This document shows positions 18,178-55,283 of a stretch of DNA of 64,000 bases, in pieces (the first letter of the stretch is position 1; each line of letters opens with the position of its first letter). The position numbers and the translations under genes were made by a program. The notes under the pieces were generated by a model. That model did not search any database. It was not told where the DNA came from and was given only the letters and a program-made list of their open reading frames with translations. The DNA is from Propioniciclava coleopterorum. GTDB taxonomy: Bacteria > Actinomycetota > Actinomycetes > Propionibacteriales > Propionibacteriaceae. The stretch covers positions 682,001 to 746,000 of the forward strand of contig NZ_CP049865.1 of assembly GCF_011393335.1 (NCBI RefSeq). Direction: 5' to 3'.

Positions 18178-18241
18178 GGCTCTCCCCTCGCTCGCGCCCG
18201 GCGCCTCACCGGTCCCGCCCCATCCTTCCACGCGGGCTGGG

Positions 18242-18247
18242 TACATT
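18242..18247 (+). promoter_or_regulatory. -10 hexamer of a leaderless gene (TACATT)
   Basis: TACATT ends six bases before ATG 18254. This places transcription start on or next to the A of the start codon, so the mRNA would be leaderless. No ribosome-binding site is present. Confidence 0.5.
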
Positions 18248-18253
18248 GGTGGC

Positions 18254-18505
18254 ATGCCCCGCGTCGTGCTCGTGATCCTGCTGATCGCCCTGATCATCTA
18301 CTCGTTGATCGAGGCGGGCCAGGCCGACGGCGATCGCGTCCGCCTGATGCCCCGCTGGCTGTGGATCGTCGCGATCCTGCTGCTACCCGGCGTGGGCGCC
18401 GTCGCCTGGCTCCTGCTCGGACGCCCGACGGGCCGCCCGGGCACCGGGGGGCGGGGGCGTCCGATGGCGCCCGACGACGACGTGGACTTCCTGCGCGGCC
18501 TGTGA
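18254..18505 (+). CDS. PLDc_N-type small membrane protein
   Basis: 83 residues with two hydrophobic helices (VVLVILLIALIIYSLIEA and LWIVAILLLPGVGAVAWLLLG) separated by a short polar loop ending MPRWLW, the arrangement of the phospholipase D nuclease N-terminal (PLDc_N) family found as short stand-alone actinobacterial proteins. The C-terminal tail is Gly/Arg-rich and ends in an acidic cluster. Divergent from menA; convergent with the response regulator, with one base between the two stop codons. Role unknown. Confidence 0.75.
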   Translation: MPRVVLVILLIALIIYSLIEAGQADGDRVRLMPRWLWIVAILLLPGVGAVAWLLLGRPTGRPGTGGRGRPMAPDDDVDFLRGL

Positions 18506-18506
18506 G

Positions 18507-19169
18507 CTAGAACCGGGGCTCGACCGGCGGCACGATGCCGTCCTCGACCGCCCGGCGGAAGAGTTCGAGCTTGGACGCCGCGGGCCGGTCGACCTGGGTG
18601 TACTTCGCGCGGATGCGCTTGAGGTACTCCTTGACCGAGTTCTCGGTGATGTAGAGCGTCCGGCCGATCGGCGGGATCTCCAGCCCGGCCGCGTACAGGC
18701 TCAGCACCTCGCGCTCGCGCGGCCCCAGCGCGGCCGCCACGTAGGTCGCGTCGCCCTCGATGGCGGCGAGGATCTCCTGGCTGATGACCTGCCGGCCCTC
18801 GTGCACCGCGACGATGGCCTCGACGGTTTCGGCGATCGGCTCGGCCTTGCGGCACACCCCGTCGGCGCCGCCGGCGAGCGCGCGTCGCAGCATCCTGACG
18901 TTGTCGGCGATGGAGTACACCAGCACCCGGTGCCCCTCGGCGCGCAACGCCTCGGCGTTGTCCTTGGGGTCGGAGCCGTCGCCCAGGTTGAGGTCGAGGA
19001 GGACCACGTCGGCGTCGGCCGGGTCGCGCGCGAGGAAGTCCGCGACGGTCGCGGCCCCCTCGATGACGCGCAGGGAGCGGCCGGACGCGCGCAGCGCGGC
19101 CGACATCCCCACCCGGATCGCCTCGTGGTCGTCGATGATCGCCACCACGATCTCGGGGGCACCGTTCAT
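18507..19169 (-). CDS. Response regulator, LuxR/NarL-type
   Basis: 220 residues: receiver domain with acidic pair D13-D14 and phospho-acceptor D59 (VVLLDLNLGDG), then a LuxR-type helix-turn-helix (LGPREREVLSLYAAGL ... ENSVKEYLKRIRAKY) at roughly 145-205. A DNA-binding transcription factor paired with the kinase just upstream, whose stop overlaps its start as ATGA. Targets unknown. It is the last gene of the leftward run that starts at the FMN riboswitch. Confidence 0.9.
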   Translation of the reverse strand: MNGAPEIVVAIIDDHEAIRVGMSAALRASGRSLRVIEGAATVADFLARDPADADVVLLDLNLGDGSDPKDNAEALRAEGHRVLVYSIADNVRMLRRALAGGADGVCRKAEPIAETVEAIVAVHEGRQVISQEILAAIEGDATYVAAALGPREREVLSLYAAGLEIPPIGRTLYITENSVKEYLKRIRAKYTQVDRPAASKLELFRRAVEDGIVPPVEPRF

Positions 19170-21157
19170 GTTTGACTCACCACTATCGTTCCGTCGTTGA
19201 GGACCTTGGTCAGCGTAGAGCCCTGAGCGTCCGCCTGCACGATCGTGACGGCCTCGGCGTACCCCTCGGGCGCGGTGCGGGCGACGATGCGGCCGTCGCG
19301 GGCGGCGTTGACCGCCTCGACGAGGTGCCGGGTGACCGCGCGCCGCACCCCGCCCTCGAGCGAGGAGCCCCGGTTGTCCACCAGGGTGACGTCGATGCCG
19401 CGCAGCCGGGCGGCCATGACCGCCGCGGCCAGCGCCGGGCCGGCGAGGTTGGCCGCCTTGATCCCGTCGCGCAGCCGCCCCTCCAGCGCCAGGCACTCCT
19501 CGCGGTCCGCGGTCGTGATGACGTGCGCCGGGTCGCGCAGCCGGTCGAGCATGCCGCCGAACTGCTCGTCCAGGTCGGCGAGCCACACCTCGCGCATCAC
19601 CAGCCCGGCGAAGGCGTCCGCGTTGGTCGCGGACGCGTCCTCGGCCTGCCGGCGCGCCGACTCCAGGTCGTCCTGGATCCGGTCGAGCCACACCAGCAGC
19701 ATCTCGGCGATGACGAGCCAGGCGATCGGCTCGGCGGCGATGACGATCTCGAGCCACACCGGCATCCCGAAGAACCAGGCCGCCCCGAGCAGGAGCGCCA
19801 CGGTGGCGAACGCCAGCGACCAGGCCGGGACGCGGCGGGCGCCGCTGAGCAGCAGGACGACCAGCAGCGAGATGCCGCTGACGAACCACGTCTCGTGGAT
19901 CGACCAGGTCTCCGACGGCAGCGCGCCCAGGCCCAGCAGCGTCGTCGCGAGACCGCCCACCATGACGAGGGCGGCGCGCGGGATCGAGAGCCGATCCTGC
20001 CCGAACCGCACCAGGGCGATCCAGCCGGAGACCAGCAGCGTCGCGGCCGCGGCCGGAAGCAGCCAGGGTCGGGGCGTCGCGCCCACTCCGAGCAGCCCGG
20101 TCAGGGCGATGACGAGGAGGTTGAGTCCCAGGATCAGCTCGATGGGGCGCAGCGACACCGCGCCGAGCAGCGGGTGCTCGGCCGCGGGGGTCGTGGCGGG
20201 TTCGCCGCCCGACCATTCCAGGACGACGGTGGTCCCCGCGCCGGGCGCGCTCGTGACCTCCGCGTCGCCGCCGACCGCCCGCATCCGCTCCCGGAGCGAC
20301 ACCCGGATCCCCAGCCTGTGGGTCGACACCTGCGCGGTGTCGAAGCCGACCCCGTCGTCGCGGACCTCCACGCGCACCACCACGGCGTCCTCGACGGCGC
20401 TGATGCAGATCCGCAGCGTGACGGTGTCGGCGTCGGCGTGCTTCTCCGCGTTCAGGACCGCCTCGCGCGTGGCCTGGGCCAGCGCCCGGGCGGCCTGCTG
20501 CGGCACCATCGGGGCGGTGGGGTCGACCGAGCCCGCGATCCGGGTCAGGGGCCCGGCGCTGAGGGCCGCCTCGGCGAGCAGATGCTCGACGCTGGTCGGC
20601 GAGAAGGCCCCCGCGGCGGTCTGGCGGACCGCCTGGGCCTCCACCCGGGCCACCGCCTGTTCGGCCAGGTCGGTGACGTGGGCGTCGTGCGGTCCGGCGC
20701 TGCGGGCGGCGGCGACCAGGGCGGTCATGACGTGGTCGTGGACGACGGCGTCCAGTTGGCTGCGCCGCGTCTCCAGGCTGGCGCTCAGCGCGGCCTCGGA
20801 CTCCTGCCGCCGCGCCTCGGCCAGCCGCGCGTCGACCAGCACAGACTGCCGCCGCATGTAGGCGAACAGGATGACGATCAGCAGCGGCTGGACGCCGACG
20901 GCCAGGGCGTCCTGGACCGCGGCGGCGGTGGACAGGTGCCCGCCGCTGGGGGTCGTCCGGACGGCCAGGTACAGCGCGGCGTTGACCACCGCCGCGGTGG
21001 CGGCGACCCCGGCGTTCCAGGCGATGCACAGCACGACGGCGGCGGCCCCGATGCAGGGCCAGAACCAGGGCGCCTGCGCGGCGGCCTGCCCCTCCCACGC
21101 GAACGGCCAGGTGATCAGCCCGACGGAGATCGCCCCCGCGTACATCGTCGCGGGCAC
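19166..21157 (-). CDS. Membrane sensor histidine kinase with unusual two-part architecture
   Basis: 663 residues. Order of parts: about four N-terminal helices (1-100); a HisKA_3-like helix with the phospho-acceptor site VVHDHV (H140); a HATPase domain with N-box REAVLNAEKH (about 231-240) and G1 box DDGVGF (267-272); then a second bundle of about five hydrophobic helices (338-480); and finally a soluble C-terminal region (about 480-663) starting with a helical segment EMLLVWLDRIQDDLESARRQ. NarL-type kinases normally end with the ATPase domain. The C-terminal half looks like a degenerate second membrane-plus-kinase module without recognisable N or G boxes. Start GTG 21157 (ATG 21145 is an alternative), 18 bases after the upstream stop. 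Confidence 0.82.
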   Translation of the reverse strand: MPATMYAGAISVGLITWPFAWEGQAAAQAPWFWPCIGAAAVVLCIAWNAGVAATAAVVNAALYLAVRTTPSGGHLSTAAAVQDALAVGVQPLLIVILFAYMRRQSVLVDARLAEARRQESEAALSASLETRRSQLDAVVHDHVMTALVAAARSAGPHDAHVTDLAEQAVARVEAQAVRQTAAGAFSPTSVEHLLAEAALSAGPLTRIAGSVDPTAPMVPQQAARALAQATREAVLNAEKHADADTVTLRICISAVEDAVVVRVEVRDDGVGFDTAQVSTHRLGIRVSLRERMRAVGGDAEVTSAPGAGTTVVLEWSGGEPATTPAAEHPLLGAVSLRPIELILGLNLLVIALTGLLGVGATPRPWLLPAAAATLLVSGWIALVRFGQDRLSIPRAALVMVGGLATTLLGLGALPSETWSIHETWFVSGISLLVVLLLSGARRVPAWSLAFATVALLLGAAWFFGMPVWLEIVIAAEPIAWLVIAEMLLVWLDRIQDDLESARRQAEDASATNADAFAGLVMREVWLADLDEQFGGMLDRLRDPAHVITTADREECLALEGRLRDGIKAANLAGPALAAAVMAARLRGIDVTLVDNRGSSLEGGVRRAVTRHLVEAVNAARDGRIVARTAPEGYAEAVTIVQADAQGSTLTKVLNDGTIVVSQT

Positions 21158-21175
21158 CCGGACGCCGCGCCGCGA

Positions 21176-21426
21176 CTAGGCGTAGACGGGCATCAGGACG
21201 CCGGTGGCGACGAGGGCGCCGCCGACGACCGTCAGCCAGAGCCGGCTCAGGTGCGGGAGTTGCTCGGCGGCGAACAACAGCGCGCCGAGGCAGGCGGCGA
21301 GCGCGATGACGGCCCCGGCGCGGTCGGTCCACCCGAGGATGCCGGCCTGCGCCGGCCCCAGCGCGCGGCGTGGCCGCCGCGGCGGATCCTCGGGGGCACG
21401 GTCTCACCTGCGGCGAGCCTGGTCAC
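21176..21426 (-). CDS. Small two-helix membrane protein (frame broken once)
   Basis: No family recognised. Reading left from GTG 21426, the protein starts VTRLAAGETVPP; one base is missing in the five-base G run at 21392-21396. Restoring it gives EDPPRRPRRALGPAQAG and then ILGWTDRAGAVIALAACLGA, a first hydrophobic helix, and a second helix RLWLTVVGGALVATGVL ending MPVYA before the TAG at 21176. Total about 83 residues. It lies 12 bases after the deaminase stop and 18 before the kinase start, so it belongs to the same leftward run. Evidence is codon-like composition and placement only. Confidence 0.5.
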
Positions 21427-21438
21427 GACGCCACCGCC

Positions 21439-21888
21439 TCAGCCCGCGGTCCAGTCGAGCAGGCCCTCGGCGTCCAGGTCGCCCTCCGGCCACACCGCGC
21501 GGACGATCCCCGCCGCGGCGAGCGCCTTGCGGCACCCCGGGCAGGGCGGATCGGTGATGTAGGCGGACGCGCCCTTGGTGTCGCGGGTGGCGAACAGGAG
21601 CGCGTTCACCTCGGCGTGGATGGCGATGCAGAACCCGGGCGTGCCGGGGCGGTCGTAGTCGCCGAGCCCCGGCACGGTGGCGTAGTCCAGGGCGCCGCGC
21701 GGGCAGGCGCCCTCCAGGCAGCTGGGCCGGCCGGGGGCGGCACCGTTGTAGCCGGTGGCGATGATGCGACGCTCGTGGACCAGGACCGCCCCGACGCGGC
21801 GGCGCGTGCACTGCGCGCGGCGCGCCACCGCCTCCGCGATGCCCAGGAAGTAGTCGTCCCAGCCGGGGACGCCGGTTCCGGTCGCCAC
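21439..21888 (-). CDS. dCMP deaminase-like protein (ComEB type)
   Basis: 149-residue zinc-dependent deaminase. The zinc/catalytic residues are H91 and E93 (IHAEVNALLF) and C116/C119 (DPPCPGCRKAL); the segment ATGYNGAAPGRPSC is the substrate-loop signature of dCMP deaminases (ComEB), which form dUMP. The pyrimidine deaminase domain of RibD shares the HAE/PCxxC core but not the GYNG loop, so dCMP deaminase is preferred. I chose GTG 21888, preceded by AGGGGGTGG. It starts 14 bases after the riboflavin binding-protein gene, an odd neighbour for a nucleotide enzyme. Confidence 0.8.
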   Translation of the reverse strand: MATGTGVPGWDDYFLGIAEAVARRAQCTRRRVGAVLVHERRIIATGYNGAAPGRPSCLEGACPRGALDYATVPGLGDYDRPGTPGFCIAIHAEVNALLFATRDTKGASAYITDPPCPGCRKALAAAGIVRAVWPEGDLDAEGLLDWTAG

Positions 21889-21902
21889 GCCACCCCCTGT
21901 CC

Positions 21903-22913
21903 TCACGTCGTGACGGCGGCGTTCGTCATGACCTCGTCGACCGCGACGACCTTCTCGATCAAGCCCTGCTCGAGCATGAACGTGCACATCGTGGACCACG
22001 CCGCCTCGTCCATTCGTGCATTCACCGTACCGTCAGGAAAGGCCCACAGGGGAAGGGTCGCCGAAAGAGTCGCCATCGCCGAGGCCTCGCCCCCGGCATC
22101 ACCCAAGGTGGGTATGTAAGCCTTCGCATCGGTGATCGCCGAAGCGGGCGCGGCAATGGTCCGGCGCATTCCTTCGGTCATCGCGGCGACGACCTTCTTG
22201 GCCTCGTCCTGGTGGCTGGACAGGTGGGCCGCCGTGGTCACCAGCGAGATGCTCTGCAGCGGCACGTCCCCCGACGCGCTCAGCGGGACGGTCCGCGTCG
22301 GCACCCCCGCGCCGACGAACCGGACCTGGTCGTTGTTGGAGAAGCCGATGATGGCCTCGACGCGGCCCGTGGTGAGCGCGGCCTGCTGCGTGTAGCCGAT
22401 CTCGACCACGTCGACGTCCGCCTGGGTCAGCCCCGCGCCGGCGAGCGCGGCCAGCAGCCCGAACCACGACTCGCCGAACTTGCCCGGCACCCCGACGCTG
22501 TGGCCGGCCAGGTCGGCGGCCGTGCGGATGTCGGAGCTCTCCGGGACGATGATGACGACGGGGTAGGCGCGGTAGTACTGCGCCACCGCGACGAGGTCCA
22601 TGCCCTGGGAGCGGGCCTGGACGGCCTCGTCGCCGCCGGCCAGGACGTAGTCCTCCTCCCCCGCCGTCAGCGCGGTGAACAGGCCCTCGTTCGCGCCGTG
22701 GTGGCGCAGCGTGGCGTCGACGCCCGCCGCGGTGAACAATCCCTGCTGTTCCGCCACGTAGAAAGGCGCGAATTGAATGTCGGGGATATAGCTCAATCCG
22801 ATGGTCGTCCGGCCGCCCGCGGCGGTCGGGGTGTTCGGCACCTTCGCGCACCCGGTCAGGGACAGGATGAGCGCGACGGCGACCGCGAGAGTTCCTCCCA
22901 GAACGCGGCGCAT
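21903..22913 (-). CDS. ribY: Riboflavin ABC transporter substrate-binding lipoprotein (RibY-like)
   Basis: 336-residue lipoprotein with signal peptide MRRVLGGTLAVAVALILSL and lipobox LTGC, followed by an NMT1/THI5-like periplasmic-binding fold (IQFAPFYVAEQQGLF, VLAGGDEAVQARSQGMDLVAVAQYY, SVGVPGKFGESWFG). Proteins of this fold bind pyrimidine or flavin ligands; the FMN riboswitch upstream makes riboflavin, as in the RibXY system, the best guess. ATG 22913 follows AAAGGAAATGCC. The same frame is open upstream to an ATG overlapping the permease stop, but that would bury the signal peptide. Confidence 0.82.
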   Translation of the reverse strand: MRRVLGGTLAVAVALILSLTGCAKVPNTPTAAGGRTTIGLSYIPDIQFAPFYVAEQQGLFTAAGVDATLRHHGANEGLFTALTAGEEDYVLAGGDEAVQARSQGMDLVAVAQYYRAYPVVIIVPESSDIRTAADLAGHSVGVPGKFGESWFGLLAALAGAGLTQADVDVVEIGYTQQAALTTGRVEAIIGFSNNDQVRFVGAGVPTRTVPLSASGDVPLQSISLVTTAAHLSSHQDEAKKVVAAMTEGMRRTIAAPASAITDAKAYIPTLGDAGGEASAMATLSATLPLWAFPDGTVNARMDEAAWSTMCTFMLEQGLIEKVVAVDEVMTNAAVTT

Positions 22914-22969
22914 GGCATTTCCTTTCGTTGCTTCGGTTCGCGGGTGGGGGCGGAGTCGGGACGGGGCGC

Positions 22970-23767
22970 TCATGCCGGCTCCCCCGTCAGGTCGGCCATG
23001 GTGGCGGAGCGGCGCTCGACGACGACGATGAGGCCGTACAGCGAGGACGCCATGGCGCACAGCACGATGATCGTGGCGAACATGCCGGCGGTGTCGACCG
23101 AGTCGCGCTGCAGCGTCAGCAGCTGACCCAGGCCGTCGCCGCCCATCACCATTTCGCCGACCACCGCCCCGGTCACCGACAGGGCGAACCCGTTGCGCAG
23201 CCCGGCGAGGATGTTCGGCAGCGCGAGCGGCAACTCGATGGCCGCCAGCAGCGCGACGGTGCCCGCCCCGTCGACGCGCGCGGCGTCCACGACCGACCGG
23301 TCGACGAGCCGCAGCCCGACGACGGCGGCCACGAGGATGGGGAAGAACACCATGAGGGCGCACAGCAGGATGATGGGCCGGATGCCGTAGCCCACCCAGA
23401 TCGCCAGCAGCGGCGCCATCGCGATCGCGGGGATCGCCTGGGTGGCCCCCAGGAACGGTGTGATCGCCGCCCGCAGCAGGACGCTGCGGTGGATCGCGAC
23501 CGCCAGCGGGATCGCGACCGCGGCCCCGAGCAGGCATCCGCCCAGCGCCTCGCTGAACGTGACGCCGAACGCCGGCCAGAAGGTGGGGCTCACCAGCGCC
23601 TGCGCGAGCTTGCGGGCGACCGTGGTGGGCGCGGGCAGGAAGTACGCCGGGGGCTGGGCGAGCCCGACCACGAGCGACCAGGTGGCCAGCAGGGCCAGGA
23701 GGAAGAGCCACGGCGCGACGGCGCGCGCGGCGGGCGTCAGCCGACGCCGGTGCTGGACCGTCCGCAT
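22970..23767 (-). CDS. ribX: Riboflavin ABC transporter permease (RibX-like)
   Basis: 265-residue BPD-type ABC permease with about six helices and the ATPase-contact EAA loop VVDAARVDGAGTVALLAAIE. Sequence type is that of the SsuC/TauC/ThiX group. It is the first gene behind the FMN riboswitch, so riboflavin (or a flavin precursor) uptake is inferred. The start ATG 23767 has GGGAGGGGAG ahead of it. No ATP-binding subunit is encoded next to it, as in the described RibXY systems, so an ATPase from elsewhere must serve. Confidence 0.82.
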   Translation of the reverse strand: MRTVQHRRRLTPAARAVAPWLFLLALLATWSLVVGLAQPPAYFLPAPTTVARKLAQALVSPTFWPAFGVTFSEALGGCLLGAAVAIPLAVAIHRSVLLRAAITPFLGATQAIPAIAMAPLLAIWVGYGIRPIILLCALMVFFPILVAAVVGLRLVDRSVVDAARVDGAGTVALLAAIELPLALPNILAGLRNGFALSVTGAVVGEMVMGGDGLGQLLTLQRDSVDTAGMFATIIVLCAMASSLYGLIVVVERRSATMADLTGEPA

Positions 23768-23843
23768 CGCTCCCCTCCCGGAACGCCGATCGGGGTCGCG
23801 GACGCGGACGTGCGTGACGGGTCCGTCAGGACGCGTCACCGCG

Positions 23844-23967
23844 CGTGCTGCCTCCCATCCGGACTTTGACCGTCGGTCCCGGACTTCCACCGGATCAACC
23901 GGACGCCGAAGCGGCCGGGTCGCGGACTATCACCGCCGGTTCGGAATTGCACCGACCCCGGAGCACG
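23844..23967 (-). promoter_or_regulatory. FMN riboswitch (RFN element)
   Basis: About 124 bases of leader RNA that bind FMN. On the minus strand the element is closed by CGTGCT pairing with AGCACG (23962-23967 with 23844-23849). Inside are the near-invariant blocks ACCGGCGGTGATAGTCCGCG (23924-23943), GACCGACGGTCAAAGTCCGG and GGATGGGAGG at the 3' side. The start codon of ribX is 77 bases downstream; the spacer contains GACGG/CCGTC and other complementary GC stretches that could form the off-state helix. High FMN should turn the downstream genes off. Confidence 0.95.
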
Positions 23968-23982
23968 TGTGTGTTCGCCGCG

Positions 23983-23988
23983 AGTCTA
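23983..23988 (-). promoter_or_regulatory. Candidate -10 hexamer for the riboswitch transcript (TAGACT)
   Basis: TAGACT on the minus strand ends 15 bases before the first riboswitch base, so transcription would begin about 8 bases before the closing helix. It lies next to an 11-bp direct repeat (GTCTACCGCAG at 23984-23994 and 23996-24006) that also contains the stop codon of the lysozyme gene. No -35 hexamer is apparent. Confidence 0.35.
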
Positions 23989-23997
23989 CCGCAGGGT

Positions 23998-24806
23998 CTA
24001 CCGCAGCGCGCTGACGGCCCACTGCCGCAGTTCATGCAGCGTGCCGAAGTACGTGGTGTCGCCCGGGCCGCCGGGCTCCCCGGCCAGCCACAGCACGGGC
24101 CGCTCCCAGCCCTCGGGGAGGTCGCCGGGCAGGTCCGCGGGGTCACGCAGCGCCAGGTCGAGCCCGCCCAGGTCGCCCGCGGGTCCCACGCACGTCGCCC
24201 ACCACTGGGCCGTGGTCGAGAGCACCGGTTGGCGCCCCGTGAGCCGGCGGTACTCGGTGGCGAAGTCGTGGACCCAGCCGCGCAGGTCGCCGGGCGCCAC
24301 GCCGCTGCAGGCGTCCTCGCCCTCCGCGCCGCGGAGGACCAGCATGCCCGGCAGCGTCCGGCCGTCGGGGCCCAGCTCCCGCCGGACGCCGCGAACACGC
24401 GCCCCTGCAGCGTCCCGGACGACTGCGCGGGGCGGGCCAGGTGGTAGCCGCCGACGAGCAGCCCGGCCGCTCGGGCGGCCTCGCGCTGCTCGGCCATCAC
24501 CGCGTTGACGTGGCCGCTGCCGTCGGTGACCTTCAGGTAGACGAAGTGCCGGCCCTCGCGGACCAGCGCGGCCCAGTCGGGGCGATCGTCGGCGGGCACC
24601 GACACCCCGGCGACCCCGGTGCCGCGCCGCCACGCGTCGCCGACCTCGACCGCGCTCGCCTCGGGCGGGTCGACGGCGCGCGCCGCCCCGACCATGACTG
24701 GTCGGGCGGCGTCGGCGGCCGCGGATGCGGCGGTGCAGCCGGTGCCCGCGAACAGCAGCGCGCACAGCAGGCTGGCGGCCCGAAGGCCAGGTCGTCGTCC
24801 CCCCAT
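23998..24806 (-). CDS. GH25 lysozyme-like lipoprotein (frame broken once)
   Basis: Peptidoglycan-acting GH25 family protein, about 269 residues. It has a signal peptide (RAASLLCALLFAGTGC with lipobox AGTGC), then GH25 blocks: GVAGVSVPADDRPDWAALV, HFVYLKVTDGSGHVN and AAGLLVGGYHLARP. Here the family's DVSxxQ start is GVSVPADD, so the usual first catalytic Asp is not obvious. The frame breaks at 24367-24373; adding one G joins SGGSW to GPDGRTLPGMLVLRG. The start ATG 24806 is six bases after the TetR stop, so it may be cotranscribed with that regulator. Confidence 0.72.
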
Positions 24807-40538: not shown

Positions 40539-42046
40539 CTAGACCCCCTGCGTCATCCGGTGCCACACGTGCTCGAGGCGGCGCTCACGCGCGAACGCCC
40601 GCGGCTGCGTGGACTCGTCGATGACCGCGAGCTCCATGCCCGCGATCGCGGCCAGATCCTGCCACATCTCCAGCGTGGTCGCCGTCGTCATGGCCGTGTG
40701 GTGCGCCGCGCCGGCGATCAGCCAGCATTCGGCCGAGGTCGCGAAGTCGGGCCGGGGCACCCAGACGGCGCGGGCGACGGGCAGCAGCGGCAGCGGCTCG
40801 TCGGGGGCGACGTTGTCCACCACGTTGGCGGTCAGCCGGAACCGCTCCCGCAGGTCGGCCAGCGCGATCACGAGCGCGGGACCCGCGTCGGCGTCGAAGA
40901 CCAGGCGCACCGGGTCGTCGCGGTCGCCGATCCCCAGGGGGTGGACCTCCAGGCGCGGGCGCGCCGTGGTCAGGCTCGGGCAGACCTCCAGCATGTGGGC
41001 GCCCAGGATCTTCTCGATGCCCGGCCGCATCTCGTAGACGTAGTCCTCCATCAGGGACGCCCCGCCCGGCCGGCCGTGCCCCATCACCTTCGCCGCGCGG
41101 ACCAGGATCGCGGTCTTCCAGTCGCCCTCGGCGCCGAACCCGTAGCCGTCCGCCATCAGCCGCTGCACGGCCAGCCCGGGCAACTGCGTCAGGCCGCCGA
41201 GGTCCTCGAAGTTGGTGGTGAACGCCCCGAAGCCGCCCGCCTCCAGGAAGTGCCGCAGCCCGATCTCCTGGCGTGCGCCCTCGCGCAGCGACGCGTGCCG
41301 GTCCCCGCCCGCGCGCAGCTCGGGGCGACGTCGTAGAGCCGCTCGTACTCGGCGACCAGCGCGTCGATGTCGGCCTCGGCGACCGCGGCGACGGCGGCCA
41401 CGAGGTCGTTGACGCCCCAGGTGTTGATCGCGACGCCGAGGGTCAGCTCGGCCTCGGTCTTGTCGCCCTCGGTGACGGCGACGTTGCGCATGTTGTCGCC
41501 GAAGCGGGCCACCGAAAGGTGGTGGAGGTCGTCCCAGGCCGTGGCGGCGCGGGCCCAGTCACCGATCTTGGCGCGGGTCGCGTCCTGGCCGGCGTGCCCC
41601 ACGACCGTCCGGCGCGCCTTGCCCAGCCGGGTGGCGGCGTAGGCGAACTCGCGGTCGCCGTGCGCGGACTGGTTGAGGTTCATGTAGTCCATGTCGAGGG
41701 TCGCCCACGGCAGCGCGGCGGACGCCTGGGTGTGCAGGTGCAGCAGCGGCTTGGCCAGGGCGTCGAGCCCCAGCAGCCACATCTTGGCCGGGGAGAACGT
41801 GTGCATCCAGGTGATGACCCCGACCACGGCGTCGTCGGCGTTCGCGGCCAGCATCTCCGCGCGGATGGCGTCGCGGTCCTTCAGCGTCGGCCGCCCGACG
41901 ACCTCGACGGGGATCTCGCCGCCCGCGTTCAGCTGGGCGACGACCTCGGCGGCCTGGGCCGCCACCTGGTCGAGGGTCTCGGGGCCGTAGAGGTCCTGCG
42001 ATCCGGTGAGGAACCAGATCCGCTTGCCCTCGAAGGGGTTCTGCAT
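40539..42046 (-). CDS. araA: L-arabinose isomerase (frame broken once)
   Basis: Converts L-arabinose to L-ribulose; about 502 residues, the normal length. N-terminal [28 protein letters not shown] and [17 protein letters not shown] are diagnostic. The frame breaks at 41322-41325; one missing C rejoins RLYDVAP to [18 protein letters not shown]. The C-terminal part has [15 protein letters not shown] (active-site Glu and metal region) and [25 protein letters not shown]. Follows araD by 27 bases on the same strand and precedes the LacI gene. Confidence 0.95.
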
Positions 42047-47968: not shown

Positions 47969-49986
47969 CTACGACCCCGTGGTCTCACGGAGCACGGCGA
48001 CCGCGCCCGCGGGCAGTTCCCACCCGCCGGGCAGCTGTGCGCCGACGAGGAGTTCGGTTCCCGACGCCGGCACCCGCGCCGGTTCGTCGGTGTGGTTGAA
48101 CAGGAACAGGAAGCTCTCCCCGTCCCCGGTGCGGCGGACCGCCTCGACGCCCTCGGGCAGCCCGGGCAGCACGGGCGCGACGCCCGCCTGGTCGGCCCAG
48201 GTGCGCACGAGGACGCGCTTGGCGTCCAGCGGGAGGTCGGTCGCGACGTACCAGGCTCGGCCGCCGTCCCCCACCTCGTTCTCGGTCACGATCGGCCCGC
48301 CGGCCAGCACCCCGTCGGTGAGGGTGCCGCGCGCCCGGGCGCCGCGGAGCTCGACCTGCTCGCTCCAGCGCTCCCCCACGGTGTCGACTTCGCCCAGCCG
48401 GACGCCGCGGGTCTCCCCGACCTGGAGCGGGTGGAACTCCTCGACGCGGACGCCGAGCAGGTCGCGGAACGCCCCGGGGTAGCCGCCCAGGTGGACGTGG
48501 TCGGAGGCGTCCACGATGCCGGAGAACCAGGTGGTCGCGAAGACGCCGCCGCGCGCGGTGACGCCGCCGAGGTTGGCCGCGGTCGCGGCCTCGGTCAGGT
48601 AGAGGTTCGGGGCGACGACCAGGTCGTAGCCGGACAGGTCGGCGTCGGGCGCGACGATGTCCACCCCGATCCCCTCGTACCACGCCGCCTTGTACCACTC
48701 GAGCACCAGGTCGGCGTAGGCGAGGGTGTTGTTGGGGTGGCTGTCGAGCTCGATCGCCCACCACGTCGGGTAGTCGAACACCAGCGCGGCCCGGGAGCGG
48801 ACCCGGCTGCCCCGCACCGGGGCCAGCGCCGCGAGCGCGCGGCCCAGTTCGACGGTGTTGCGCCACACCTGGGAGTCGGTGCCGGCGTGGGGCACCATCG
48901 CCGAGTGGAACTTCTCGGCGCCGGCGCGGGACTGGCGCCACTGGAAGAACATGGCGCCGTCCGCGCCGCGCGCGACGTGGTCGAGCGCGTCGCGCAGCAT
49001 CTCGCCGGGCTCCTTGGCGCGGTTGACGTGCTGCCAGTTCACCGCCGAGGTGGAGTGCTCCATCAGCACCCAGGGGCGCCCTGGGCGACGCCGCGGGTCA
49101 GGTCCGCGGCGAAGGCCAGCTCGATGTGGCGCTCGGGGTCGTGGGCGCGGGTGTAGTGGTCGTTGGCGACGACGTCCACGGCGTCGGCCCACCCGAAGTA
49201 GTCCACGCCGCGGTTGCCCGTGTTGCACATGAAGTTGGTCGTCACCGGGACGTCGGGCGCCGCGACGAGGACCGCCCGGCGCAGCTCGCGGAAGTAGGCC
49301 AGCCCGGCGTCGGAGCTGAACCGCTTGAAGTCGAGCTGCTGGGTCGGGTTGGCGTAGGTGGGGGCGGCCCGCGGCGGCAGCACGTCGTCGAAGGTGCCGT
49401 AGCGCTGCGACCAGAAGGCCGTGCCCCACGCCTCGTTCAGCGCCTCGACGGTGCCGTAGCGCTCCGTCAGCCAGGCGCGGAACGCGGGGATGGTGTTGTC
49501 GGAGTAGTCCTCGGGGACGTGGCAGCCGATCTCGTTGTCGATGTGCCACAGCGCCATGGCGGGGTGACGCGCGTAGCGCTGCGCCATCCGGCTCGCCATC
49601 TGGGTGGCGTAGCGCACGTAGACCGGCGAGGTGGGCGCGTACGACTGGCGTCCGCCCTGGTGCAGCACGGTGCCGTCGGCGTGCTGCGGCAGGATGTCGG
49701 GGTGCCGGTGGGTGAGCCACGGCGGCGGGGACGCGGTCGCGGTCGCAAGCGCCACCTTGATGCCGCCGGCGTGCAGCCGGTCGAGGATGTCGTCGAGCCA
49801 CTTCCAGTGGAACTCGCCCTCATTGGGCTCGATGGTCGCCCAGGCGAAGATGGCGAGGCTGACCAGGTTGACCCCCGCCTCCTGCATCAGCGCGATGTCC
49901 TCGTCCCACACCTCCCGGGGCCATTGCTCGGGGTTGTAGTCCCCGCCGTAGACGAGTCCGTCCACCTGGTCGTTCCACGCGCGCAC
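47969..49986 (-). CDS. GH42 beta-galactosidase (frame broken once)
   Basis: About 672 residues, cytoplasmic. Hydrolyses beta-galactosides such as galacto- or arabinogalacto-oligosaccharides. GH42 signs: GGDYNPEQWPREVWDEDI, the acid/base Glu in ALWHIDNEIGCH (E152), and the nucleophile Glu in WVLMEHSTSAVNWQ (about E310). The frame breaks at 49073-49076; restoring one C joins GVAQGAP to WVLMEHS. The C-terminal part has the trimer-domain sequence ARGGVFATTWFSGIVD. Start ATG 49986 (reads MRAWNDQVDGLVYGGDYNP). Downstream of a complete sugar import gene set on the same strand. Confidence 0.93.
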
Positions 49987-54239: not shown

Positions 54240-55283
54240 ATGGCCGAGCCGGAGAAGCGCCCCACGATCCACGACGTGGCCCGCCACGCGGGCGTGTCGT
54301 CGGCGACGGTGTCGCGCGTGCTCAACGGGAAGAAGTGGGTCGGGACCGAGACCCAGGCGGCTGTGCAGCGTGCGATCGCGCGGACCGGTTATACGACCAA
54401 CCGCAGCGCCCGCTCCCTGGCGGGCGGCCGGTCGCGGTCGTACGCCTTCCTGATCACCCAGCCGCAGCGTGCCCTGTTCGAGGACCCCAACTACGCCGAG
54501 CTGATCCGCGGCGCTTCGGAGGAACTCAGCGAGCGCGACCTCGCGATGGTGATCATGATCGCCGACACCCGCGCGAGCGGCGCCAGGCCGTGGAGTACGT
54601 GGGCGGCGGCCACATCGACGGCGTCCTGCTGCTCTCGCCGAACGAGGGCGACCCGCTGCTGGTCGAACTCGAGCACACCGGGGTGCCGCTGGTGTGCAAC
54701 GGCGGCCTGCCGCGCTGGAGCCACCGGATGAGCACCGTGACCGCCGACGACCACGGCGGCGCGGTGCTGGCGCTCGACCACCTGCTCGCGTGCGGCGCCC
54801 GCACCGTCGCGACGATCACCGGCCCGACAACTCGTGGGGGCGCGCGAGCGGCTGCGCGGCTACGCCGACGTCCTCGCCGCGCGGGGGCTCCCCCACGCGC
54901 CCGACCTGGTGGCCTCCGGCGACTGGTCCCCCGCGAGCGGGCGGGCCGCGATGGAAGCGCTCCTGGAACGCCGGGGCGACCTCGACGCGGTCTTCGTCGC
55001 CAACGACGCCATGGCGGCCGGGGCGCTGGACGCCCTGCGCGCCGCCGGCCGGCGCGTCCCCGACGACGTCCTGGTCGCCGGCTTCGACGACGCGGCGGTC
55101 GCGGCACAGGTGGACCCGCCGCTGACCACGGTGCGGCTGCCGCTGGAGCAGATCAGTCGCGAGATGGTCCGGCTGATCTGCGCGCCCGAGGGCGGACCCT
55201 CGCGCGTGACGCTGCCCACCGAACTGGTGGTGCGCGCCTCGGCGCCGGCCGCCCACGCGACGGCCGGCGCCCAGGGCGGCTAG
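54240..55283 (+). CDS. LacI family transcriptional regulator (frame broken three times)
   Basis: About 348 residues. HTH PTIHDVARHAGVSSATVSRVLNGKKWVGTETQ, then SLAGGRSRSYAFLITQPQRALF. The frame changes near 54568-54578 (restored: AVEYVGGGHIDGVLLLSPNE), at 54823-54825 (ITGPDNSW) and at 54836-54840 (GARERLRGYADVLAARG); each is repaired by one added base. The end has VFVANDAMAAGALDALRAAGRRVPDDVLVAGFDD. It faces the importer operon and is tail-to-tail with GH51, sharing the stop tetramer CTAG. It probably regulates both. Confidence 0.83.

Follow-up and report, generated by a model that had tools for sequence, protein, structure and literature searches.

Does a flavin mononucleotide (FMN) riboswitch set the level of a signaling system as well as that of a vitamin transporter? 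The question is raised by a gene run of Propioniciclava coleopterorum (Propionibacteriaceae), found in a stretch of 64,000 nucleotides (contig NZ_CP049865.1 of assembly GCF_011393335.1, positions 682,001 to 746,000), which is called the window here and in whose numbering positions are given. FMN riboswitches are known to control genes of riboflavin synthesis and uptake. In the window, such a riboswitch is followed by the transporter-type genes ribX and ribY, a deoxycytidine monophosphate (dCMP) deaminase-like gene, and the genes of a sensor histidine kinase and its response regulator. We favor, at a probability of about 60%, the reading that this is the FMN-riboswitch/RibXY uptake operon of a Propioniciclava species that, judged by its genes, relies on riboflavin import, extended by the deaminase and a NarL-type two-component system into one riboswitch-controlled unit.

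The initial annotation of the window had described a leftward, one-strand run headed by the riboswitch, and the riboswitch and all genes of the run indeed lie on the minus strand. The aptamer (23842..23969) matched the RF00050 covariance model over its full length (model positions 1-138) with 94.6 bits (E 1.6e-20), above the gathering score of 66.2, and constituted the single RF00050 match in the whole 3.67-Mb genome. A −10-like box (TAGACT, 23983..23988), which fits the actinobacterial −10 box TANNNT, is located 13 bases upstream of the aptamer. Downstream lies ribX (22970..23767), coding for an ATP-binding cassette permease of 265 amino acids (PF00528, E 5.6e-27). After a gap of 56 bases it is followed by ribY (21903..22913), coding for a substrate-binding protein of 336 amino acids (NMT1/THI5, PF09084, E 5e-36) whose only sequence match among solved structures, at E 1e-5, was a formyl-aminopyrimidine-binding protein (3ix1). 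A permease and a THI5-like binding protein are encoded behind the FMN riboswitch, and the operon lacks an ATPase gene. The deaminase-like gene (21439..21888; 149 amino acids; PF00383, E 5.1e-19) follows after 14 bases, and deoxycytidylate deaminases were among the solved-structure matches of its product. It was 80-91% identical among relatives, a better conservation than we observed for ribY and the kinase. The kinase frame is present as a 5′ fragment (21179..21403) and, behind a break discussed below, as 663 remaining codons with a GTG start (19166..21157). It overlaps the response regulator gene (18507..19169; 220 amino acids) by 4 bases. A 1-base gap separates the regulator end from a convergent small gene on the plus strand (18254..18505), which bounds the run and lies outside it. 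The initial annotation had the 56- and 14-base gaps and the kinase/regulator overlap right.

A survey of relatives for ribXY followed by this kinase pair, as proposed in the initial annotation, revealed that the arrangement is conserved. The regulator was searched for in a collection of species genomes by two short peptide patterns, so that orthologs without the patterns were missed, and the scan returned 38 relatives, of which 35 belong to Propionibacteriaceae (66-88% identity) and 3 to Kocuria (37-40%). Exclusion of the Kocuria loci and of four contig-end loci (L082, L090, L095, and L111) left 31 informative loci. Loci were assigned to family and genus by matching contig coordinates to labeled genomes, and the resulting Propioniciclava group includes Nigerium. 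Riboswitches were found by motif in this survey, and covariance-model matches were obtained at many of the same places. In 30 of the 31 loci, the riboswitch motif, ribX, and ribY were located upstream of the kinase-regulator pair on the same strand and in conserved order, with a motif-to-regulator distance of 4.4-6.6 kb. The deaminase was also present in 21 of these 30. With 30 of 31 orthologous loci showing it, the gene order is beyond chance. Within the window's genus, all 13 genomes carried the riboswitch. In eight of them, the window included, a single contig carried riboswitch, ribX, ribY, kinase, and regulator, and in three of these eight the deaminase was missing. The set was split over contigs in G010; G007 (72% complete) gave no regulator match, and its contig breaks off within ribY.

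Gaps were counted with a home-made gene finder that missed the deaminase in L089, L095, and L101; contig-end loci and L108 were included and L104 was excluded. Distances of at most 100 bases were observed for ribX-ribY in 30/30, ribY-deaminase in 18/20, deaminase-kinase in 19/21, and kinase-regulator in 28/34 cases, and the median gaps were 7 bases between deaminase and kinase and 10 bases between kinase and regulator. As controls, 16 riboswitch loci of family genomes were picked by hand. One (L124) gave no gene rows, one (L136) contained the pair, nine others had ribX and ribY matches, and five had no ribXY match; no kinase-regulator pair was found among the genes listed after ribY in the eight informative control ribXY loci (the ninth ends inside ribY). 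In a midpoint-rooted tree of the regulator, the linked sequences and those of Propionicicella clustered together, and the remaining unlinked sequences lay elsewhere. At the Propionicicella superfundia locus (L062/L063), we observed that transketolase-like genes come after riboswitch-ribXY and that the kinase pair follows a flotillin-like gene. Plasmid carriage was considered and dismissed, as the nine records retrieved were all below 60% identity.

Both proteins have the parts of a two-component system. The kinase comprises, in this order, membrane helices, a phospho-acceptor region with an HD motif, an ATPase domain (HATPase_c, E 2e-10 in the window), and a second half of membrane, helix, and ATPase-like parts in which the histidine is missing. 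PF02518 was matched in 24/24 kinase orthologs (E up to 1), and H140, D141, N236, D267, and G269 of the window kinase fragment were invariant in 20 sequences. The regulator comprises a receiver domain (PF00072) with the acceptor aspartate and a LuxR-type DNA-binding domain (PF00196). Its residues D13, D14, D59, and K108, chosen for their general importance in receiver phosphorylation, were invariant in 21 sequences, over which mean column identity was 76%. To these alignments we added a structure model of the P. flava ortholog (753 amino acids), built with 24 sequences, with a predicted local distance difference test (pLDDT) score of 83.8 and a predicted template modeling (pTM) score of 0.65. 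It displayed putative membrane helices, a long helix bearing H230 (the conserved histidine), and the ATPase domain, followed by another set of such helices, another long helix, and an ATPase-like terminus. This second half has no such histidine in P. flava. From this model we infer that a pseudo-kinase may be fused here to an active kinase. When the two halves were compared by profile, the match was weak (probability of 31%; E 5e-4, calculated for this one pair) and covered the first helices only. At L079 (6743-9001) and in its orthologs, the kinase resembles two tandem modules, the second without the histidine, and related kinases of similar length occur in neighborhoods that look unrelated (L043, L044, and L046).

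Sequence matches of the kinase to solved structures (VraS, DosT/DevS, and DesK) covered the ATPase domain, and a fold search with the model returned general kinase folds. Weak presenilin matches (E 0.003-0.01) were taken as chance. Among the Pfam matches of the 24 kinase orthologs there was no flavin-binding family, and no result supported the idea of the initial annotation that the kinase could sense flavin or redox state. Paralogous kinases elsewhere gave no hint to the signal, as their neighbors look unrelated, and the same was true of a 52-54% identical regulator in three genomes of the family (G092, G119, and G147), which has unrelated-looking neighbors and no riboswitch in the 18-kb stretches around it.

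The gene content of the genus fits a need for uptake. Lumazine synthase (RibH) and 3,4-dihydroxy-2-butanone 4-phosphate (DHBP) synthase (RibB) had no match in any of the 13 genus genomes, and a flavin adenine dinucleotide (FAD) synthetase was present in all 13. By gene content, Propioniciclava genomes would therefore need imported riboflavin.

If the run is one unit, transcription would start at the −10-like box in front of the aptamer and, judging from spacing, strand, and conserved order, would in this genus most likely run to the regulator, where the convergent gene would end the unit. Under FMN scarcity the aptamer would be free and ribX would be expressed; the downstream genes, including the kinase pair, would rise too, via translational coupling or reduced polarity. 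With FMN plentiful, the whole run would fall. The kinase would pass an envelope signal to the regulator, which would act on its regulon. Its stable place beside the transporter may speculatively be taken to mean that the signal is linked to riboflavin supply or membrane state. The conserved one-run order of uptake genes and kinase pair suggests but does not prove that signaling is tied to vitamin supply.

Further observations bear on such a unit, a number of them against it, and they concern internal promoters, the state of the kinase gene, the output of the riboswitch, and the link to auxotrophy. Within 30 bases upstream of the aptamer, TANNNT was found in 30/30 linked loci versus 6/291 upstream control windows. 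In the window, the 745 bases between ribY and the kinase GTG contain no further match, which agrees with the single transcript proposed in the initial annotation. The ribY-to-next-gene gap was likewise free of the motif in 4/7 Propioniciclava loci, including that of P. flava, which has one match inside the deaminase gene, and in 5/6 Micropruina loci. A box does precede the next gene in the other 3/7 Propioniciclava loci and 1/6 Micropruina loci, and 16/17 loci of the Propionicimonas group have one between ribY and the deaminase, where a single transcript fits less well. Fifteen of these boxes (L088, L089, L091-L093, L096-L098, L100-L103, L105, L106, and L113) lie upstream of the first aligned deaminase codon at a distance of 56-64 bases; 14 of the 15 read TANCCT, and all are candidate internal promoters. 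The exceptions are L116, whose box differs in sequence and place, and L110, which has none. As the box is nearly fixed in 15 of the 17 loci, a separate promoter before the deaminase may serve the kinase part in this group.

The boxes raise the possibility that the kinase pair, alone or together with the deaminase, is a neighbor and not a partner of ribXY, being expressed from its own promoter in a conserved block between ribXY and menaquinone genes. This would account for Propionicicella superfundia, the sole exception among the 31 loci, where the pair lies about 25-27 kb from riboswitch-ribXY and near menA, and for G001, G009, and G012, three Propioniciclava genomes that keep riboswitch, ribX, ribY, and deaminase and lack the pair. 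A gap of at most 100 bases between ribY and kinase was also found in only 3 of 11 cases, and 3 of the 11 are due to a deaminase missed by the gene finder. However, an own promoter finds no box between ribY and the kinase in the window, nor in the ribY-to-next-gene gap of P. flava and of most Micropruina loci, and in most loci the deaminase and kinase genes, and likewise the kinase and regulator genes, overlap or nearly touch. Moreover, the regulator is followed by an opposite-strand gene in 5/5 linked relatives annotated, as in the window, and in these relatives it stands between the pair and the men genes. In our estimate, mere neighborhood is possible but less likely than not. Riboswitch control of the kinase pair is plausible on sequence grounds in the window's genus and in Micropruina, and in Propionicimonas it is probably partial.

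The kinase gene is interrupted in the window. The initial annotation listed a separate two-helix protein between deaminase and kinase; this candidate was rejected, since the two helices share the kinase frame, from whose remainder only the TAG at 21176-21178 and 18 further bases separate them. They match the N terminus of the relatives' kinases and are continuous with the kinase in 15 translated relatives. Among the relatives, the ten with the best scores (E 1.6e-238 to 7.1e-96) have matching open frames of 751-907 codons without stops, and 24 kinase orthologs, with starts chosen by the analyst, are 728-769 residues long. No ATG, GTG, or TTG between the preceding TGA and the TAG would include both helices, and no start codon ahead of them was seen in their frame by eye. 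The 12- and 18-base gaps of the initial annotation are true distances; however, they flank a gene fragment and not a gene, and the GTG at 21426, from which the 12-base gap was derived, lies in another frame that stops after 59 codons.

The system could then be dead in the window species, the kinase having lost its start and first helices, in which case riboswitch control of the kinase would be without effect there. The missing start codon and the in-frame TAG speak for this, as does the absence of the pair from the three genus genomes named above. A metagenome-derived relative, L110 (same place as L074), also has a two-piece kinase. On the other side, 663 codons are still open with the catalytic residues kept, translation could begin at the GTG at 21157, and the regulator is 89% identical to that of P. 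flava. The window contains other split genes. By Pfam, a GH42 beta-galactosidase gene (47969-49986) matches profile positions 1-292 in one frame and 294-375 in another, and a gene for a LacI-type regulator (54240-55283) is divided into one open frame for the DNA-binding domain and a separate one for the ligand-binding domain. The GH25-like gene upstream of the riboswitch (23998-24806) and araA (40539-42046) appeared split by inspection, and the window holds further candidates. These splits suggest base-level errors in this assembly, and the kinase break may be one of them; we judge an assembly error at least as likely as true decay. The interruption near the kinase start would thus stem from assembly error or recent decay, and a dead system in this species appears less likely than not.

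Turning back to the favored single unit, the means by which the riboswitch would act gave less clear results. A T-run terminator was looked for in the leader and none was found. Single folds paired the Shine-Dalgarno sequence in many leaders; however, pairing in 17 leaders averaged 0.72 compared to 0.67 in shuffles, and their alignment gave no consensus structure. Shine-Dalgarno sequestration was therefore not adopted as the probable output. Rho-dependent control of the FMN riboswitch has reportedly been found in C. glutamicum. A scan of 18200-24200 for intrinsic terminators yielded two weak sites, both inside the kinase gene, where 0.7 were expected, and intrinsic termination in the run was set aside. 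One of the two terminator-like sites (21283-21299) does fall in the 5′ fragment, past the deaminase and ahead of the rest of the kinase frame.

Lumazine synthase was found in 63/197 genomes of the wider family. Among 37 family genomes with a close regulator match (at least 67% identity), 34 had no lumazine synthase match, compared to 100 of the 160 others; these are hand counts over the 197 genomes, and kinship among genomes confounds the comparison. The pair is mostly, not exclusively, present in genomes without a lumazine synthase match. Since 3/37 regulator-bearing genomes have the enzyme, auxotrophy is not required for the pair and, with the genomes being related, was rejected as its explanation.

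It is very improbable that the pair is tied to the deaminase (deoxyuridine monophosphate supply, possibly for a flavin-dependent thymidylate synthase) and not to riboflavin uptake, since, despite the deaminase's high conservation, its abutment on the kinase gene, and the box before it in Propionicimonas, 9/30 riboswitch-linked loci have the pair without a deaminase match and the deaminase persists in the three Propioniciclava genomes that lack the pair.

If the favored reading holds, riboswitch control would extend to signal transduction in several genera of one family, and a concrete route to what such bacteria do when riboflavin runs short would be at hand. Named above are loci that have or lack the internal box and loci that have or lack the kinase pair, which makes the question directly testable. 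A farther-reaching version, which we regard as rather improbable, is that the riboswitch sets the dose of the pair while the fused active/histidine-less kinase senses riboflavin supply, perhaps through RibY/RibX, and adjusts flavin-dependent metabolism, so that an RNA sensor and a protein sensor would act in one operon of FMN-starved auxotrophs.

Parts of this arrangement resemble known systems. The HATPase domain is related by sequence to that of NarL-type kinases (VraS, DevS/DosT, DesK, and MacS), which share the LuxR-type regulator; in contrast to these, the window kinase has the second membrane and kinase-like half without the histidine. The NCBIfam matches listed for kinase and regulator were all below the cut-offs. 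In the Eut system, as excerpts of PMC5821096 describe it, a vitamin riboswitch and a two-component regulator (the EutV/EutW pair) likewise belong to one circuit, an adenosylcobalamin riboswitch in a small RNA (EutX/Rli55) sequestering EutV; the window riboswitch differs in lying in cis at the head of a gene run, and the regulator is of the LuxR type. Closest by gene content are the RibXY riboflavin transporters under FMN riboswitch control, which are reported for Chloroflexus and others in excerpts of PMC4418817 and PMC3766115, and for Actinobacteria too in PMC4418817. They share the FMN riboswitch, the permease, the THI5-like binding protein, and the absence of an ATPase gene from the operon, whereas the window run goes on with a deaminase and a two-component system. 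The term "two-component" is absent from the main texts of both papers, and "kinase" occurs only in that of PMC4418817, twice, as carbohydrate kinase. Searches of an open-licence library found no published description of the present arrangement. The FMN-riboswitch/RibXY operon is known; the conserved kinase-regulator pair added to it appears to be new.

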